Positions 5,213-34,451 of a DNA stretch of 35,901 bases are shown one piece after another; position 1 is the first letter of the stretch, and each line of letters starts with the position of its first letter. Source of the DNA: Deltaproteobacteria bacterium (GTDB lineage: Bacteria > Desulfobacterota > Desulfobaccia > Desulfobaccales > 0-14-0-80-60-11); NCBI GenBank assembly GCA_016208235.1, contig JACQYN010000161.1, positions 1 through 35,901 on the forward strand, written 5' to 3'. The notes below the pieces were generated by a model, which saw nothing but the letters and a program-made list of their open reading frames with translations, made no database searches and was not told the DNA's origin. The position numbers were made by a program, and so were the translations under genes.

Positions 5213-5261
5213 GTAGGGTGCGTTTCACGCACCAAAAGGCTGTGGGTGCGCCCTATGCACC
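5213..5261. repeat. Twin-hairpin intergenic element
   Basis: GGTAGGGTGCGTTTCACGCACC-spacer-GGTGCGCCCTATGCACC. Confidence 0.6.
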
Positions 5262-5296: not shown

Positions 5297-5350
5297 GTGG
5301 AGCAGGCGCCCTCGCCTGCGCCGGAACAGCCGGGGGCGGCTGTTCCACAC
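5297..5350. repeat. Twin-hairpin intergenic element
   Basis: GTGGAGCAGGCGCCCTCGCCTGC-gcc-GGAACAGCCGGGGGCGGCTGTTCCACAC. Confidence 0.65.
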
Positions 5351-5437: not shown

Positions 5438-5470
5438 AACCGAAAACCGAAAACCGAAAATTGAAAACTG
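5438..5470. repeat. CCGAAAA-type short tandem array
   Basis: aaccgaaaaccgaaaaccgaaaattgaaaactg. Confidence 0.8.
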
Positions 5471-5900
5471 TATAAAGGGGGCTGCCGCTAAGGAATTGGT
5501 GGGCAGTGCCCACCCTACATCTGCGGGGGCCTGCACCACGGCCCCAACATTTTTTGTATCCCAGGAATTTAGGGGAAAAGAGGGAGAATTCCAGAAAGGA
5601 TGAAATGATTGACGCGCATTTGGGAGAATTTTAGAAATTACGGATATAAACAGTAATCAGCACTTCCCAATAAAGGCTTATGGTGGAGAGGGCGGAAGAT
5701 TGGCAGGGGGGAGTATTGGAGATTAATGTACTTGATGTATAAGACAAAGCAGGAGCTTGGGAAAGAGCGTAAATTAAAATACGTCTGTCCCATTTCTCCC
5801 ACCATTTTTACCATTTCTTCCACTATTTTTCCCCGCACTACAAGACACAGCGAATTGGGCGGGAGTTCGTGCCTATTTTCACTAACCCTGGACAGAAATC

Positions 5901-8911: not shown

Positions 8912-8936
8912 AGCACAGGCGAGACGCCTGTGCTAC
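8912..8936. repeat. Single-hairpin member of the CACAGGC/GCCTGTG palindrome family
   Basis: AGCACAGGCGAGACGCCTGTGCTAC downstream of serA. Confidence 0.6.
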
Positions 8937-10533: not shown

Positions 10534-11456
10534 AGATTTTTAGCGGCAACGCCAACCGGCCCCTGGCCGAGAAAATCTGCGGGCACCTGGGGGTGCCCCT
10601 GGGCCAGGCGGTGGTGGGGCAGTTCTCCGATGGGGAGCTGATGGTGGAGTTCCGGGAGAACGTCCGGGGCCAAGACGTGTACGTCCTTCAACCCCTGTCT
10701 GTGCCCTGCAATGAACACCTGATGGAACTATTGCTGATGGTGGATGCCCTGAAAAGGGCCTCCGCCGCCTGCATCACCGCGGTGGTGCCCTACTACGCCT
10801 ATGCCCGGCAAGACCGCAAGACCGCGCCCCGAGTGCCCATTTCCGCCAAGCTGGTGGCGGATTTAATCACCGCCGCGGGGGCCAACCGGCTGGTGACCAT
10901 GGACCTGCACGCGGGCCAGATCCAGGGATTTTTTAATATCCCCGTGGATCACTTGTTCGCGGCGCCGGTGGTCCTGGATTATATCCGCCAGCGCTTCGGC
11001 CCTGACGTGGTGGTGGTCTCCCCCGACGCCGGGGGCGTAGAGCGGGCCCGGGCCTTCGCCAAGAGGCTGCACACTTCCCTGGCCATCATCGACAAACGCC
11101 GGGAAGGGCCGGCCATCAAAGCCATGACCCTCATCGGCAACGTCTGGGGCAAGGAGGCCATCATCCTGGATGACATGATCACCACCGGCTCCACGGTGGT
11201 CATGGCCGCGGAACTGCTGATCCGCCACGGGGCCCGGGGCGTGCACGCCTGTATCACCCACCCGGTGATGGCCCGGAACGCAGTGAGTAACCTGCAAGGG
11301 TCGCTGCTCCAGAGCCTGGCGGTGACCGACACCATTCCCTTGACCCCGGAGGCCGCGACCCTGGAAAAGGTCAAGGTGCTGTCCGTGGCGCCGCTGCTGG
11401 GGGAGGCCATCCGCAACATTCACAACCAGGATTCGGTGAGTTCGTTGTTTGTTTAA
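10521..11456 (+). CDS. prs: Ribose-phosphate pyrophosphokinase
   Basis: [66 protein letters not shown]; start overlaps the ispE end. Confidence 0.96.
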
Positions 11457-11458
11457 AG

Positions 11459-11493
11459 ACAGTTTTCGGTTTTCAGTTTTCGGTTTTCGGTTA
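11459..11493. repeat. TTTTCGG-type short tandem array, 5' arm of inverted pair
   Basis: acagttttcggttttcagttttcggttttcggtta, 3 nt after the prs stop. Confidence 0.85.
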
Positions 11494-11673: not shown

Positions 11674-12282
<609 letters not shown>

Positions 12283-12286
12283 CAGG

Positions 12287-12380
12287 CTTTTAAGTCCCCC
12301 TTTTTTAAAGGGGGATTTAGGGGAATTTTCAGAGGCTTACAAAATCCCCCCTGACCCCCCTTTAGAAAAGGGGGGAAATA
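12287..12380. repeat. Palindromic C/G-tract repeat, copy 1
   Basis: AAGTCCCCCTTTTTTAAAGGGGGATTTAGGGG...AAAATCCCCCCTGACCCCCCTTTAGAAAAGGGGGGAAAT; near-identical copy at 34354..34451. Confidence 0.85.
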
Positions 12381-12451
12381 CCTCTCCCTTCCCAAGCTTT
12401 TTGCCTTAAATGGAAATCATTTGAATTATCGAACATAGCTGAAACTCAAAG

Positions 12452-12556
12452 CAGTTGCTCATGGGCCGTTGGCCCACCCGTAAATGATGAAAAAGCTGGT
12501 GGGGCGGGCCTCCGTGCCCGCCATTAAGAAAGGCGGCCAGAGACGGCCGCCCCACC
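12452..12556. repeat. Composite element copy A (leader plus twin hairpin)
   Basis: cagttgctcatgggccgttggccca...GGTGGGGCGGGCCTCCGTGCCCGCC-attaagaaa-GGCGGCCAGAGACGGCCGCCCCACC. Confidence 0.65.
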
Positions 12557-12588
12557 AACTCACTGCTTATTTTTTTAACTTATCGGAA

Positions 12589-12695
12589 CAGTTCCTCATG
12601 AGCCATTGGCTGCCCCGGAAATTATGAAAAATCGTAGGGCGGGCGTCCTCGCCCGCCTCGTTAATCCGCACAGGCTGGAAAGCCTGTGCTACCAC
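12589..12695. repeat. Composite element copy B (leader plus twin hairpin)
   Basis: cagttcctcatgagccattggc...GTAGGGCGGGCGTCCTCGCCCGCC-tcgttaatcc-GCACAGGCTGGAAAGCCTGTGCTACCAC. Confidence 0.7.
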
Positions 12696-12728: not shown

Positions 12729-14027
12729 ATGCGCATCCTTTTCATCTCCCCCAACCGGCTGCGCCTGGTAGTGCCGCCTCTGCCCCTGGGGTTGGCCTCG
12801 GTGGTGGCCGCAGTAAAAAATGAGTATGAAGTCCGGGTCCTGGATTTCATGTTTGCGGATGACCCTCTGGGGCAGGTGCGCCGCGCGGTGATCGAGTTTT
12901 CGCCGGACGTCATCGCCTTATCGGTGAGAAATATTGATAACCAGGACAGCCGTAATCCCGAATCTTACATCAGCGAAGTGAAGGACCTGGTGCATCTGCT
13001 TAAAGAACTCAGCGCTGCTCCCGTCGTGGTGGGGGGAGCCGGCTTCAGCATTATGCCCCGGGAATTTATGGAATACCTGGAGGCCGACTTCGGCGTGGCC
13101 GGGGAAGGGGAGGGGGCTTTCCGGGAATTTCTTTCGGCCTCTAGCGGCAGCCGGGATTGGGAGACGGTCTCCGGGTTGGCATGGCGGCAGGGAGACACGT
13201 GGCGGCTGAATCCGGTGCAAAGGGTGGCCGACCTCAAGAGTTTGCCGGCCCCGGCCCTGGAATATTTTACTCCCGACCTTTACCAGGAGGCCCAGGGAAG
13301 CGCCAAACTTCCCGGGATGGTGCCGGTGCAGACCCGCCGGGGCTGCCCCATGAAATGTATCTATTGCACCACGCCTTTGCTGGAAGGGCGGCGGTTCCGG
13401 GCCTGGGAGCCCGGGCAAATCGCTTCCTGGCTGGCGGCCTGGCATGAAAAATGGGGTTTAACGCGCTTCTATTTCGTGGATAATCTCTTCAACTGCCCGC
13501 CCAGCTATGCCAAGAGTCTCTGCCGGGCCATCCTCGATCTCAACCTGCCTTTGGAGTGGGGCGCTCTCCTCAATCCCGCGGCCCCGGACCGGGAACTTTT
13601 TCGTTTTATCCGCCAGGCCGGGGGAGCCTTCATGCAGGTGGGCAACGAAAGCGGCTCGGAATTGGTGCTGACGAAGTTGGGCAAGGGTTTCGGCCGGCGG
13701 CAGGTGGAGCTCACCTTCCGCTTACTGGAGGAAGAAGGGATTTCCTACTCCTGCTTCCTGCTCCTGGGCGGCCCCGGTGAGACCCCGGAGACGGTCAAAG
13801 AGAGCGTGGCCCTGCTGGAGCAATACCGGCCCCAAATGGTCAACCTGACGGTGGGAGTGCGCATCTATCCGGGGTTGGCCCTGCACCGGCAAGCCCTGGA
13901 GGAAGGTGTGGTGGCCCCTAAGGATAACCTGCTCCGGCCCCGGTTTTATCTGGCTCCGGCTATTCGGGAGTGGATTTGGGAGTATCTAGAAGGAGTGACG
14001 GCGAGACACCCGAATTGGATCTTTTAA
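12729..14027 (+). CDS. B12-binding-domain radical SAM protein
   Basis: N-terminal PPLPLGLASVVAAVKN...VRVLDFMF and PDVIALSVRNIDN; RRGCPMKCIYCTTP (CxxxCxxC); GGPGETPETVKES. Confidence 0.9.
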   Translation: MRILFISPNRLRLVVPPLPLGLASVVAAVKNEYEVRVLDFMFADDPLGQVRRAVIEFSPDVIALSVRNIDNQDSRNPESYISEVKDLVHLLKELSAAPVVVGGAGFSIMPREFMEYLEADFGVAGEGEGAFREFLSASSGSRDWETVSGLAWRQGDTWRLNPVQRVADLKSLPAPALEYFTPDLYQEAQGSAKLPGMVPVQTRRGCPMKCIYCTTPLLEGRRFRAWEPGQIASWLAAWHEKWGLTRFYFVDNLFNCPPSYAKSLCRAILDLNLPLEWGALLNPAAPDRELFRFIRQAGGAFMQVGNESGSELVLTKLGKGFGRRQVELTFRLLEEEGISYSCFLLLGGPGETPETVKESVALLEQYRPQMVNLTVGVRIYPGLALHRQALEEGVVAPKDNLLRPRFYLAPAIREWIWEYLEGVTARHPNWIF

Positions 14028-14029
14028 AG

Positions 14030-14067
14030 ACGGTTTTTAGTTTTCAGTTTTTAGTTTTTAGTTAAAA
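14030..14067. repeat. TTTTTAG-type short tandem array (variant unit), 5' arm
   Basis: acggtttttagttttcagtttttagtttttagttaaaa, just after the radical SAM stop. Confidence 0.8.
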
Positions 14068-14199: not shown

Positions 14200-14238
14200 A
14201 CCAAAAACCAAAAACCAAAAACCAAAAACTAAAAACTG
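14200..14238. repeat. CCAAAAA/CTAAAAA-type short tandem array, 3' arm
   Basis: accaaaaaccaaaaaccaaaaaccaaaaactaaaaactg, ends about 10 nt before ATG 14248. Confidence 0.8.
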
Positions 14239-14247
14239 GAAAGAAAA

Positions 14248-15986: not shown

Positions 15987-16030
15987 CCACAAAGGCACAA
16001 AGGCACAAAGACACAAAGAGTCACAAAGGA
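15987..16030. repeat. CACAAAG-type short tandem array, 5' arm
   Basis: accacaaaggcacaaaggcacaaagacacaaagagtcacaaagg. Confidence 0.85.
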
Positions 16031-16040
16031 AAAAAGAAAA

Positions 16041-16067
16041 TGCCCTGGCAAGCCAGGGCATTTTTTT
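16041..16067. terminator. Bidirectional Rho-independent terminator
   Basis: aaaaagaaaa-TGCCCTGGC-aa-GCCAGGGCA-ttttttt between the convergent AAA+ regulator and nuoN. Confidence 0.85.
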
Positions 16068-16070
16068 CTC

Positions 16071-16112
16071 TGTGAACCTTTGTGTCTTCGTGTCTTTGTG
16101 GTTAATATTTTT
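16071..16112. repeat. CTTTGTG-type short tandem array, 3' arm
   Basis: tgtgaacctttgtgtcttcgtgtctttgtggttaat, inverted relative to 15987..16030. Confidence 0.85.
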
Positions 16113-27259: not shown

Positions 27260-28636
<1,377 letters not shown>

Positions 28637-28751: not shown

Positions 28752-28782
28752 ACCGAAAACCGAAAACTGAAAACCGGAAACC
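28752..28782. repeat. CCGAAAA-type array adjoining the S41 protease stop, partner of 28588..28620
   Basis: accgaaaaccgaaaactgaaaaccggaaacc. Confidence 0.85.
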
Positions 28783-28783
28783 C

Positions 28784-30130
28784 TCATTTAGGCTGCTGCG
28801 CCAACTTTTTTGGGGGCCAGTTGCGGAGCATCTCCACGGCCCGCTTCAGTTGGGGGTCCTGATCCAGTTCCGCGGCGGCGATGGGTTGGCTCCAGGGCTT
28901 ATCCGTCAGGCCTTCTTTGCGCATGTGCTTGCTCAGGGACTCCTCCCGGACTTTTTGCAAGCTTTTGCCCACGGGGATTTCCGGTTCCTGGACCACCTCA
29001 TCCGGGACAATGCCCTTGTCCTGGATGGTGGCGCCGCTGGGAGTGTGAAAGAGGGCCGTGGTCAGGCGCAGGGCGGACCCGTCTTCCAGGGGAATGATGG
29101 TTTGCACTGAACCCTTGCCGAAGCTCTTGGTGCCGATGACGATGGCCCGCTTCTGGTCCTTGAGCGCGCCGGCCACGATTTCCGAGGCCGAGGCGCTGCC
29201 CTCGTTGATGATGACCACCATGGGCGCGGGAACCTCTATCTTCTTGCCGGGGTGGGCGTAGAAGCGCATGTTCTGCTGGGGAGAGCGCCCTTCCGTATAG
29301 ACGATGAGCCCGGAACTGAGGAATTCGTCCGTTACCCGCACCGCCTGCTCCAGCAGGCCTCCCGGGTCATTGCGCAGGTCCAGGATCAGACCTTTGAAGG
29401 GAGTGAGGCGTTGCTGCATCTTCTTCAGGTAGGCCTGCAGGTCCTGGTCGGTCTGGTCCTGGAAATTGGCCAGGCGGATATAGCCAATGCCCCCGTCGAT
29501 GATACGGGCTTTGACGCTGCGGATGGGGATGATCTCCCGGACAATCGCAAAATCCTTGGGTTGTGCAAAACCTTCCCGGTTGATGGTGAGGGTCACCTTG
29601 GAGCCTTTGGGGCCCCGGATGGCCTTCACCGCTTCGGTGAGGCTCATGTTTTTGGTGGGCGCGCCGTTGATTTTGACGATCTGATCCCCGGCCTGGAGGC
29701 CCATGCGGTAGGCAGGGGTGCCTTCAATGGGGGAGACCACCGTCAGGATGCGGTCCTTCAGGGTAATTTCGATGCCGATGCCGCTGAATTTGCCCTTGGT
29801 TTCGATCTGCAACTCCCGGTATTCCTCCGGGTTCATAAAGGAGGAGTGGGAATCCAAAGTGCTCACCGCGCCCTGGATGGCCCCATAAATTAGATCCTTA
29901 GGGGTCTTGGGCTCCACATACTGTTCTTCCACCAGGGCCAGGGCCTGGGCCAGGACCCGGAGCTTGGCGTCTGCGACTGGGGCGACGGGTTGTGATAGCG
30001 CCGTCATTTGTACGGGGGCGCCCCGGAAGTCGGCGGCAGTGGGGACCGGCTGCCACAGGAACAGACCGCCGCAGAGGGCGAGAATCAGAAATAGGCCCGC
30101 AAAGCCGCCCGCTATTTTTCTGGGGGTCAT
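28784..30130 (-). CDS. S41 family C-terminal processing peptidase with PDZ domain (alternative start 30163)
   Basis: SGIGIEITLKDRILTVVSPIEGTPAYRMGLQAGDQIVKING; catalytic GSASASEIVAGAL and GTKSFGKGSVQTIIPL. Confidence 0.93.
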   Translation of the reverse strand: MTPRKIAGGFAGLFLILALCGGLFLWQPVPTAADFRGAPVQMTALSQPVAPVADAKLRVLAQALALVEEQYVEPKTPKDLIYGAIQGAVSTLDSHSSFMNPEEYRELQIETKGKFSGIGIEITLKDRILTVVSPIEGTPAYRMGLQAGDQIVKINGAPTKNMSLTEAVKAIRGPKGSKVTLTINREGFAQPKDFAIVREIIPIRSVKARIIDGGIGYIRLANFQDQTDQDLQAYLKKMQQRLTPFKGLILDLRNDPGGLLEQAVRVTDEFLSSGLIVYTEGRSPQQNMRFYAHPGKKIEVPAPMVVIINEGSASASEIVAGALKDQKRAIVIGTKSFGKGSVQTIIPLEDGSALRLTTALFHTPSGATIQDKGIVPDEVVQEPEIPVGKSLQKVREESLSKHMRKEGLTDKPWSQPIAAAELDQDPQLKRAVEMLRNWPPKKLAQQPK

Positions 30131-32450: not shown

Positions 32451-32468
32451 TTTATCTCCTGATTAAAA

Positions 32469-32515
32469 AGTTCCAAGTTCCAAGTTCCTGGTTCCAGGTT
32501 CAAAGTTCAAAAACT
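32469..32515. repeat. GTTCCAA/GTTCAAA short tandem array
   Basis: agttccaagttccaagttcctggttccaggttcaaagttcaaaaact. Confidence 0.8.
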
Positions 32516-32545
32516 TCGGAAAAGGCTTGCCTGACTCAATTTTCT

Positions 32546-32571
32546 AACCGAAAACCGAAAACAGAAAACCG
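32546..32571. repeat. CCGAAAA-type array adjoining the transketolase-N stop
   Basis: aaccgaaaaccgaaaacagaaaaccg. Confidence 0.8.
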
Positions 32572-32574
32572 TAT

Positions 32575-33471
32575 TTAAGCGGCGTGCAATTCCTTCAGGG
32601 CCTGCTCGTATTCCTCTTTGCTAGGGGTCACGCCGTGGTATTTCACCTGGTTTTCAAAGATGGAAACCCCCTTGCCTTTCACCGTATGGGCGATGATCAT
32701 GGAGGGGCGGCCTTTCACCCCGTGGGTTTCTTGCAACCCGGCCAGCAGTTCCGGGAAGGCGTGGCCGTCCACTTCGAGGGTATGCCACCCGAAGGCCTCC
32801 CATTTCTGAGCCAGGGGTTCGAGACTCATCACCTCCGCGGTGCGGCCGTCAATCTGCAGGCGGTTGCGATCCAGGACGGCCACCAGGTTATCCAGGCGGT
32901 AATGGGCCGCGGTCATGGCCGCCTCCCAGATCTGCCCCTCCTGGACTTCGCCGTCTCCCAACAAGGCATAAACCCGGGTGCCACCCCCATTGAGGCGGGA
33001 CGCCAGGGCCATGCCGTTGGCAATAGAGAGGCCCTGGCCCAGGGAGCCGGTGGAGACCTCTACTCCCGGGGTGCAGGAGGAATCCGGGTGGCCCTGCAAG
33101 GAGCTGCCGAACTGGCGCAGGGTGAACAGTTCTTCCCGGGGGAAATAACCCAGCCGGGAGAGCACCGCGTATAAAGCGGGCGCGGCGTGGCCCTTGGAGA
33201 GCACGAAGCGGTCCCGCTGGGGCCAGCAAGGGTCCTGGGGGTTGAGGCGCATCTGCGCGAAAAACAGCGCCACCAGGATATCGGTGGCCGACAGCGACCC
33301 TCCCGTGTGGCCGGAGCCGGCCTTAAAGAGCATTTCAATGATATCCAGGCGGACCTGCCGGGCTATCTCCCGGAGATGGGAAATGTCGGGAATCTCTTGG
33401 CAATTCTTTGTCACGATGGTGTGGACCCCTGTTTTATTAATATAATAAATAATGGGATTATTTGCTACCAT
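32575..33471 (-). CDS. Transketolase N-terminal subunit
   Basis: 298 aa; GSGHTGGSLSATDILVALFF, LSKGHAAPALYAVL, GSLGQGLSIANGMAL, LLGDGEVQEGQIWEAAM. Confidence 0.94.
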   Translation of the reverse strand: MVANNPIIYYINKTGVHTIVTKNCQEIPDISHLREIARQVRLDIIEMLFKAGSGHTGGSLSATDILVALFFAQMRLNPQDPCWPQRDRFVLSKGHAAPALYAVLSRLGYFPREELFTLRQFGSSLQGHPDSSCTPGVEVSTGSLGQGLSIANGMALASRLNGGGTRVYALLGDGEVQEGQIWEAAMTAAHYRLDNLVAVLDRNRLQIDGRTAEVMSLEPLAQKWEAFGWHTLEVDGHAFPELLAGLQETHGVKGRPSMIIAHTVKGKGVSIFENQVKYHGVTPSKEEYEQALKELHAA

Positions 33472-33548
33472 AACCCCAAAAAACCTGCAAGGTTTGGAAA
33501 ATTATCCGGGCATTTGACCATCTGGGTGGGCTTACGGGTGAACCGAAA

Positions 33549-33606
33549 GTTCCAAGTTCCAAGTTCCAAGTTCAAAGTTCAAGGTTCAAGGTTCAAGGTT
33601 CAAAAA
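33549..33606. repeat. GTTCCAA/GTTCAAG short tandem array
   Basis: gttccaagttccaagttccaagttcaaagttcaaggttcaaggttcaaggttcaaaa. Confidence 0.85.
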
Positions 33607-33609
33607 GCC

Positions 33610-33669
33610 GTAGGGCGGGCGTCCTCGCCCGCCCCTTTAGTCCGCACAGGCTGGAAAGCCTGTGCCACC
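33610..33669. repeat. Twin-hairpin element
   Basis: GTAGGGCGGGCGTCCTCGCCCGCC-cctttagtcc-GCACAGGCTGGAAAGCCTGTGCCACC; nearly the same words as 12634..12695. Confidence 0.8.
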
Positions 33670-33672
33670 AGT

Positions 33673-33733
33673 GTAGGGTGGGCACTGCCCACCTTTTCTT
33701 GCGGTTGTTAATGGCGGGCAGTGCCCGCCCTAC
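33673..33733. repeat. Twin-hairpin element
   Basis: GTAGGGTGGGCACTGCCCACC-spacer-GGCGGGCAGTGCCCGCCCTAC. Confidence 0.8.
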
Positions 33734-33748
33734 AAAAAAGATAAACCT

Positions 33749-33881
33749 CGTTCCCAAGCTCCCGCTTGGGAACGGAATTGGCAGCGAAGCTCCTGCTTCG
33801 CTTAAAAAGGGGGCAATGGATTCTGTGAAAAAGCAGGAGCTTTTTCCTCCATTTGGGTTCCCAAGCAGGAGCTTGGGAACC
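33749..33881. repeat. Three-hairpin cluster (AAGCTCC / AAGCAGGAGCTT family)
   Basis: GTTCCCAAGCTCCCGCTTGGGAAC; AGCGAAGCTCCTGCTTCGCT; GGTTCCCAAGCAGGAGCTTGGGAACC. Confidence 0.75.
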
Positions 33882-33980: not shown

Positions 33981-34265
33981 ATGGCCTTGACCCGGGAAGA
34001 AGTGCTGCACGTGGCCAACCTGGCGCGGCTCAGCCTGGAGCCCGCGGAAGTGGAGCTGTTCACCCGGCAGCTTAACGATATCCTGGCCTACGTGGAGAAA
34101 TTACAGGAGCTGGACACCACCGGAGTTACGCCCATGGCCCACGTCGTCCCGGTCTTTAACGCCTTCCGGGAGGATGAGGTAAAACCCGGTCTGCCCCGGG
34201 AAGAGGCCCTGGACAACGCGCCCTCCCGGGAAGAGGGGAGTTTTGTGGTGCCCAAGATCATTTAG
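33981..34265 (+). CDS. gatC: Asp/Glu-tRNA amidotransferase subunit C
   Basis: 94 aa; EEVLHVANLARLSLEPAEVELFTRQLNDILAYVEKLQELDTTGVTPM. Confidence 0.96.
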   Translation: MALTREEVLHVANLARLSLEPAEVELFTRQLNDILAYVEKLQELDTTGVTPMAHVVPVFNAFREDEVKPGLPREEALDNAPSREEGSFVVPKII

Positions 34266-34267
34266 AG

Positions 34268-34326
34268 ACGGTTTTCAGTTTTCGGTTTCCAGTTTTCGGT
34301 CTTAGGTCTTCGGTCTTAGGTCTTCA
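34268..34326. repeat. TTTTCGG plus GGTCTTA/GGTCTTC array, adjoining the gatC stop
   Basis: cggttttcagttttcggtttccagttttcggtcttaggtcttcggtcttaggtcttc. Confidence 0.8.
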
Positions 34327-34353: not shown

Positions 34354-34451
34354 GTTTTTAAGTCCCCCTTTTTTAAAGGGGGATTTTTAGGGGGATTTTC
34401 AACAGGTTGCATAAAATCCCCCCTGACCCCCCTTTAGAAAAGGGGGGAAAT
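34354..34451. repeat. Palindromic C/G-tract repeat, copy 2
   Basis: TTTTTAAGTCCCCCTTTTTTAAAGGGGGATTTTTAGGGGG...AAAATCCCCCCTGACCCCCCTTTAGAAAAGGGGGGAAAT. Confidence 0.85.

Follow-up and report, generated by a model that had tools for sequence, protein, structure and literature searches.

The window, which is the whole stretch of 35,901 nt analysed here, corresponds to contig C120 of a metagenome-assembled genome (the host) comprising 272 contigs and 3.08 Mb. Its hairpins are intergenic (pth / radical SAM and transketolase / gatC being the gene pairs concerned). Hairpins were found at all seven places for which a preliminary description had proposed a plan of two hairpins enclosed by boundary motifs, and the plan held for six of these places, which have two hairpins with their tags outside (GTAG or GTGG on the left, CTAC or CCAC on the right). 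The window contains 16 GC-rich hairpins tagged with GTAG or GTGG, versus a mean of 1.84 and a maximum of 6 in 100 dinucleotide-preserving shuffles, and six tags-outside pairs, versus a mean and a maximum of 0. An Rfam search gave no match, and a tRNA scan detected none.

The first element, at 7-65, is a dimer of ABC-class REPs with its tags outside (GTAGGGGCGCACC... / ...GGGTCCGCCCCTAC). It forms the core of a MITE-like element (shell 1, described below), the right arm of which occupies positions 66-99, with the terminal inverted repeat GCGACTTGGTA at 86-96 and TTA at 97-99; the left half of this copy lies beyond the contig edge. The place departing from the plan, 5213-5261, holds two REPs of class F, both oriented along the plus strand (GTAGGGTGCGTTTCACGCACC and GTGGGTGCGCCCTATGCACC), GTAG... 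followed by GTGG..., without the CCCTAC or CCACC right boundary, and is not a tags-outside dimer; F is the cognate class of the RAYT gene L002. The I-class dimer at 5297-5350 and the E-E dimer at 12498-12556 have GTGG tags outside and each combine two different stems (GGCGGGC / GGCGGCC in the E-E dimer), and an E-D hybrid dimer with a conserved 10-nt spacer is located at 12634-12695. Two single REPs on the minus strand, one of class F at 5498-5517 (GTAGGGTGGGCACTGCCCACC) and the other of class D at 8913-8935 (GTAGCACAGGCGTCTCGCCTGTGC), were absent from the earlier list. The three elements previously described as stacked in tandem are, in substance, an E-D dimer, an F-E dimer and an H-class cluster. 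The E-D hybrid dimer, at 33610-33669, is a second copy of that described above (91% identity to 12627-12694 over 68 nt) and is followed by the F-E hybrid dimer at 33673-33733 (GTAGGGTGGGCACTGCCCACC / GTAGGGCGGGCACTGCCCGCC). The hairpins of the three-hairpin cluster at 33749-33881 are present, but they constitute a separate class (H; GTTCCCAAGC...GCTTGGGAAC) with no GTAG or GTGG tag. The two outer hairpins, at 33749-33774 on the plus strand (CGTTCCCAAGC...GCTTGGGAACG) and at 33856-33881 on the minus strand (GGTTCCCAAGC...GCTTGGGAACC), belong to the class framing the RAYT gene L001.

Other repeats were also observed. A second shell (shell 2), composed of a GGCC hairpin, CCCGTAAATTATGAAAAG, an exchangeable core and AACTTTTCNGANCAG, is present at 12448-12492 (plus strand, GGCC hairpin followed by CCCGTAAATGATGAAAA), at about 12585-12629 and at about 40 places in the genome, with E-D, D, E-F, E-E, F or heptad cores. 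Degenerate heptad arrays (AAGTTCC/AAGTTCA) adjoin REP dimers at 32468-32513 and 33540-33605, the latter being of the AACTTTG/AACTTGG type on the minus strand and a recurrent neighbour of E-class dimers; many genome copies of these arrays close a shell-2 unit. Heptads of the ACCGAAA type (5439-5478, 11452-11493, 11680-11719, 14023-14064, 14200-14239, 28590-28622, 28752-28791, 32540-32579 and 34261-34302) sit at gene borders, often as inverted pairs. A perfect 39-nt repeat (AAAATCCCCCCTGACCCCCCTTTAGAAAAGGGGGGAAAT) at 12341-12379 and 34413-34451 represents another palindromic family, and CACAAAG-type repeats in inverted arrangement occupy 15996-16100.

The genome was investigated through a sample of 1.57 Mb of the 3.08 Mb, in which REPs were called by approximate matching that took orientation and tags into account, in seven sequence classes defined here from a consensus set built from the host genome. 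The hairpins are dispersed and present in high copy number, with 484 REPs of the seven classes in 1.57 Mb, a density that is approximate because the sample consists partly of contigs picked for carrying a REP motif. Each is a perfect palindrome preceded on its 5' side by GTAG or GTGG; the tag was found overall, class H being the exception. When no tag was presupposed, the 4-mer with the strongest enrichment at the bases of hairpins in the 1.57 Mb was again GTAG (4.9-fold), and the CGTC tag of the CGTC-tagged REP superfamily is not that of the host. The stems did not occur mostly singly, at random spacing and without a boundary motif: 43% of neighbouring REPs lie no more than 60 bp apart, versus 1.8% expected, and, with pairs including a class H member left out, 116 of the 145 close pairs have their tags outside (13 have them inside and 16 are in tandem), the tags-outside pairs having class-specific spacers. 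The test of stem covariation suggested in the preliminary description was positive, with 18 double-changed cells for class F (shuffle mean 6.2) and 14 for class ABC (shuffle mean 4.8), neither value being reached in any of 500 shuffles; kinship can inflate such counts, and slid controls dropped to 0-1. The tags and the tags-outside dimers bear out the earlier suggestion of a REP/BIME-like family. The twin hairpins are REP dimers of the REPIN/BIME type, consisting of two REPs head to head with their tags outside, and their stems change by compensatory mutation.

A RAYT-type transposase, which had been predicted to lie elsewhere in the genome, is indeed encoded there, by five genes matching PF01797. 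All five also match the NCBIfam model REP_Tyr_transpos (NF047646), four above the cut-off and L003 below the curated value (63.3 of 80 bits), and HUH motifs (PDHVH etc.) and Y(I/L)xxNP are visible in their translations. L001 is framed by GTTCCCAAGC hairpins (class H), L002 by GTAGGGTGCGTTTCACGCACC (class F), L003 by GTAGGGGCGNACC (class ABC), and L004 and L005 by GTGGCACAGGC (class D); the flanking classes of all five also occur genome-wide. NF047646 matches were obtained in 32 of 40 genomes (host included), and the RAYTs of relatives carry matching REPs. In a tree including these relatives, the D, H and F/E RAYTs formed separate supported clades, and clade matched REP class. The association between RAYTs and REP classes is thus observed directly; by analogy with characterised RAYTs, at least five RAYT (TnpA-REP, HUH/Y1) transposases would each spread their own REP class. 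The RAYT gene at L003:1288-2265 (G000:C219) continues in frame into a YraN-family domain downstream, and both the linker and an insert in its RAYT part consist of REP sequence. At the start of the L004 and L005 frames, in-frame translation of the D-class REP located upstream yields PGGTGxxPV; the N-terminus of these annotated transposases may therefore be derived from REP DNA.

No dedicated class E RAYT was found in the host genome, and class E, as defined here, lumps together at least two RAYT affinities. In the relative G013, class E REPs with a short GTC loop lie less than 50 bp from both sides of a D-clade RAYT, which displays 45% identity to L005, versus about 27-30% for non-D RAYTs of comparable length, and the loop GTCTC is common to some D and some E REPs. 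These few cases suggest that E and D may be read by one RAYT clade, in which case the E-D stem swap would be a stem change between REPs of a single clade. This reading would fit the dependence of group-3 RAYTs on loop positions (PMC8266576), if the host RAYTs belong to group 3. Similarly, RAYTs L185 and L186 of relatives are flanked by the two REPs found in the window dimer at 33673-33733, and we infer, from a small number of cases, that both partners of this F-E dimer may belong to one RAYT clade.

In aligned ABC dimers, conservation extends past the tags, into a MITE-like shell that surrounds many dimers and lay beyond what could be seen in the preliminary description. Shell 1 is about 120 bp long and has the structure TACCAAGTYGC..TCAAA...TTTGA..GCRACTTGGTA, bordered on both sides by TNA, with terminal inverted repeats in which 18 positions are matched between the ends in at least 70% of copies. 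In the sample, it encloses a dimer of class ABC, a D-G dimer or a palindrome unrelated to these (GTCATTCTGAGCGCAGCGAAGAATCTC type); three entries called as having an H core are probably false shells. The two-ended pattern was found in 47 copies in the host and also in eight relatives (9 of the 40 genomes), and the reversed control pattern yielded 0 in the 40 genomes. Shell cores differ between relatives: that of G016 and G021 is GTAGGGGCGGTTCGCGAACCGCCCCTAC, and G008 has the same shell with an ABC-like core at C1, C14 and C101, together with D-G dimers less than about 50 bp from shell ends at several other sites. The cores are interchangeable, both within the host genome and between relatives. 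Contigs C91, C108, C120, C190 and C226, and many contigs of G021, end inside shell copies; such repeats probably break assemblies, leading to underestimation of copy number.

The trinucleotides bordering the shell are informative. For shells picked regardless of their flanks, the flanking 3-mers were identical in 27 of 31; of the 29 TNA pairs, 27 had the same N at both ends and none had complementary N. A genome-wide hand count for exact shell ends gave identical TNA in 38 of 39 pairs among the matches listed, and a hand count of the ends listed for G016 and G021 gave agreement in 18 of 19 pairs. Any of the four bases can occupy the central position (T 11, A 10, G 10, C 7), but the base matches between the two ends, and the trinucleotide is therefore a target duplication rather than part of the inverted repeat. 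Copies of shell plus core that are identical over 120 bp are present at unlinked sites; their trinucleotides differ, and their flanks display 30-43% identity. The duplication argues that the shell, together with its core, would move as a unit; it resembles what we take to be that of the IS5/IS1031 group, and the enzyme responsible would probably be of the DDE type.

Under an alternative explanation, the shell is a passive palindromic target for repeated RAYT insertion of REP dimers and is not mobile with its core. Insertion by a RAYT into hairpin-forming single strands is plausible, and there is a precedent: in the section of PMC3733652 concerned, many GTAG-15 dimers of Anabaena variabilis lie inside long palindromes (TATAGGA...TCCTATA) treated as targets. 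These dimers have the same position, in the middle of an inverted repeat, as those of the host, and palindromes without REPs were likewise not found; the inverted repeat is different, however, and neither target duplication nor core exchange is reported in that section. A passive target accounts poorly for matching TNA at both shell ends and for identical shell-plus-core copies at unlinked sites with different trinucleotides. Further evidence against it is that no empty shell of 40-260 bp was found in the 1.57 Mb and that a search for shells of 58-88 nt in the 40 genomes returned a single match, itself bearing a GTAGGGGCG sequence. We consider this explanation unlikely. That no empty shell was seen could reflect a need for the core in movement or, alternatively, the co-amplification of a few founders.

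It is also improbable that a RAYT, rather than a DDE transposase, mobilises the shell, with the TNA match reflecting sequence preference. In its favour, RAYTs are present in the host, the shell always has a hairpin core and RAYT genes can have long terminal inverted repeats on their flanks (PMC3733652). Against it, a preference would not explain a free N that is equal at both ends and never complementary, and, to our knowledge, target duplication would not be expected from HUH/Y1 transposition. No autonomous element with TACCAAGTYGC ends was detected in half of the genome or among the genome-wide ends matched and listed, and a loose-mismatch search for far shell-end pairs returned only noise. 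The host has two DDE_Tnp_1 genes, and the one examined is an IS fragment without shell ends. We retain, as the preferred reading, a TNA-duplicating shell mobilised by a second, probably DDE-type, transposition system, through which REP copies would also spread as cargo, with core classes exchanged within the same shell. The nesting may have arisen by insertion of a REP into a MITE or, in the opposite order, by the acquisition of MITE ends around REPs. A more specific proposal, which we advance tentatively and at slightly less than even odds, is that, in this bacterial family, a MITE family that duplicates TNA permanently has REP dimers as its core, one dimer being exchangeable for another; the same sequence would then be spread by two unrelated transposition systems, a RAYT acting on single strands and a DDE enzyme acting on the shell, and a hairpin core would be needed for the shell to move.

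Hybrid dimers account for 37 of the 116 tags-outside dimers (about 32%) with the class labels used here. This is fewer than the 82.6 expected under random labelling, same-class pairing being the rule, and would be compatible with hybrids being chance neighbours among independent REPs. The spacers make this very improbable: the D-E lineage, with 11 copies in the sample, has a spacer of exactly 10 nt in 9 of the 11, the D-G lineage has a spacer of 1-3 nt in 14 of 16 pairs, and the spacer sequence is conserved. The pairings also recur across taxa. The D-E junction is present in six of the seven genomes of the genus (host included) and in none of the 33 others, and the 14 genomes, of the 40, that carry the D-G dimer belong to a single family, G018 having 89 copies; the exact E-D dimer was found in genome_contigs in one other genome only, the MAG Syntrophobacterales DeMMO6_13. 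The stems presented earlier as exchangeable do differ between copies, but the hybrids are fixed dimers with conserved spacers, which would have multiplied as units. The accompanying view that modular pairing is under-described needs qualification. Hybrid dimers have already been described (about 10% of the dimers of S. maltophilia, in the part of PMC3733652 considered), as have GTGG variants, from Opitutus (same source). Modular pairing therefore has at least some precedent.

The possibility that the hairpins act at gene ends, as intrinsic terminators or as regulatory elements in RNA, and are not mobile DNA, suggested by their intergenic position in the window and by the effects of REPs on mRNA elsewhere, can be rejected on the basis of the absence of T-runs and the presence of near-identical dimers dispersed at unlinked sites, in addition to the location of the tags outside the two hairpins, the lack of an Rfam match and the framing of RAYT genes by the same hairpins. 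Overall, we assign a probability of about 0.88 to the whole explanation, in which REP dimers would be spread by RAYTs and many would form the exchanged cores of a TNA-duplicating shell.

TNA-duplicating MITEs, presumably IS5/IS1031-like, share with shell 1 terminal inverted repeats of about 18 bp, a 3-bp TNA duplication, a lack of coding capacity and identical dispersed copies; they differ in that the host shell always has a REP dimer or other palindrome as its core. The GTAG REPs/REPtrons (Di Nocera 2013, PMC3733652; Nunvar 2010, PMC2817692, and 2013, PMC3686654) have, in the passages considered, the same tag, short perfect palindromes and dimers, and likewise several classes each with its own RAYT, and hybrid dimers. 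In comparison with those passages, the host is distinguished by its frequency of hybrids (about 32%), its two fixed multicopy lineages with conserved spacers, its different stems and the location of many dimers inside a shell with a trinucleotide duplication. The REPINs of Pseudomonas fluorescens SBW25 are the same inverted REP doublet, RAYT-linked and multiplying as a unit, but their doublets are rarely mixed (PMC3116915), whereas mixed doublets are common in the host. The BIMEs of E. coli (y-z1 and y-z2 mosaics; PMC8266576) display the same alternation of REP types in inverted pairs, with one RAYT and bulged, related REPs rather than the five RAYTs and perfect palindromes of the host. In the open-access literature, assessed from titles and abstracts, we found no paper describing REP-in-MITE nesting with duplication; this provides weak support for its novelty.

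The dissemination of REPs is still poorly understood (PMC8266576). A REP-carrying shell with target duplication would provide a second, conventional route for REP spread, and its duplication makes it possible to test the interpretation, in earlier reports, of REP dimers as insertions into palindromes. The hybrid dimers, of which one extends across the genus and another across the family, would allow the birth of new REP pairs to be dated and may serve as a probe of what a RAYT recognises when stems vary.
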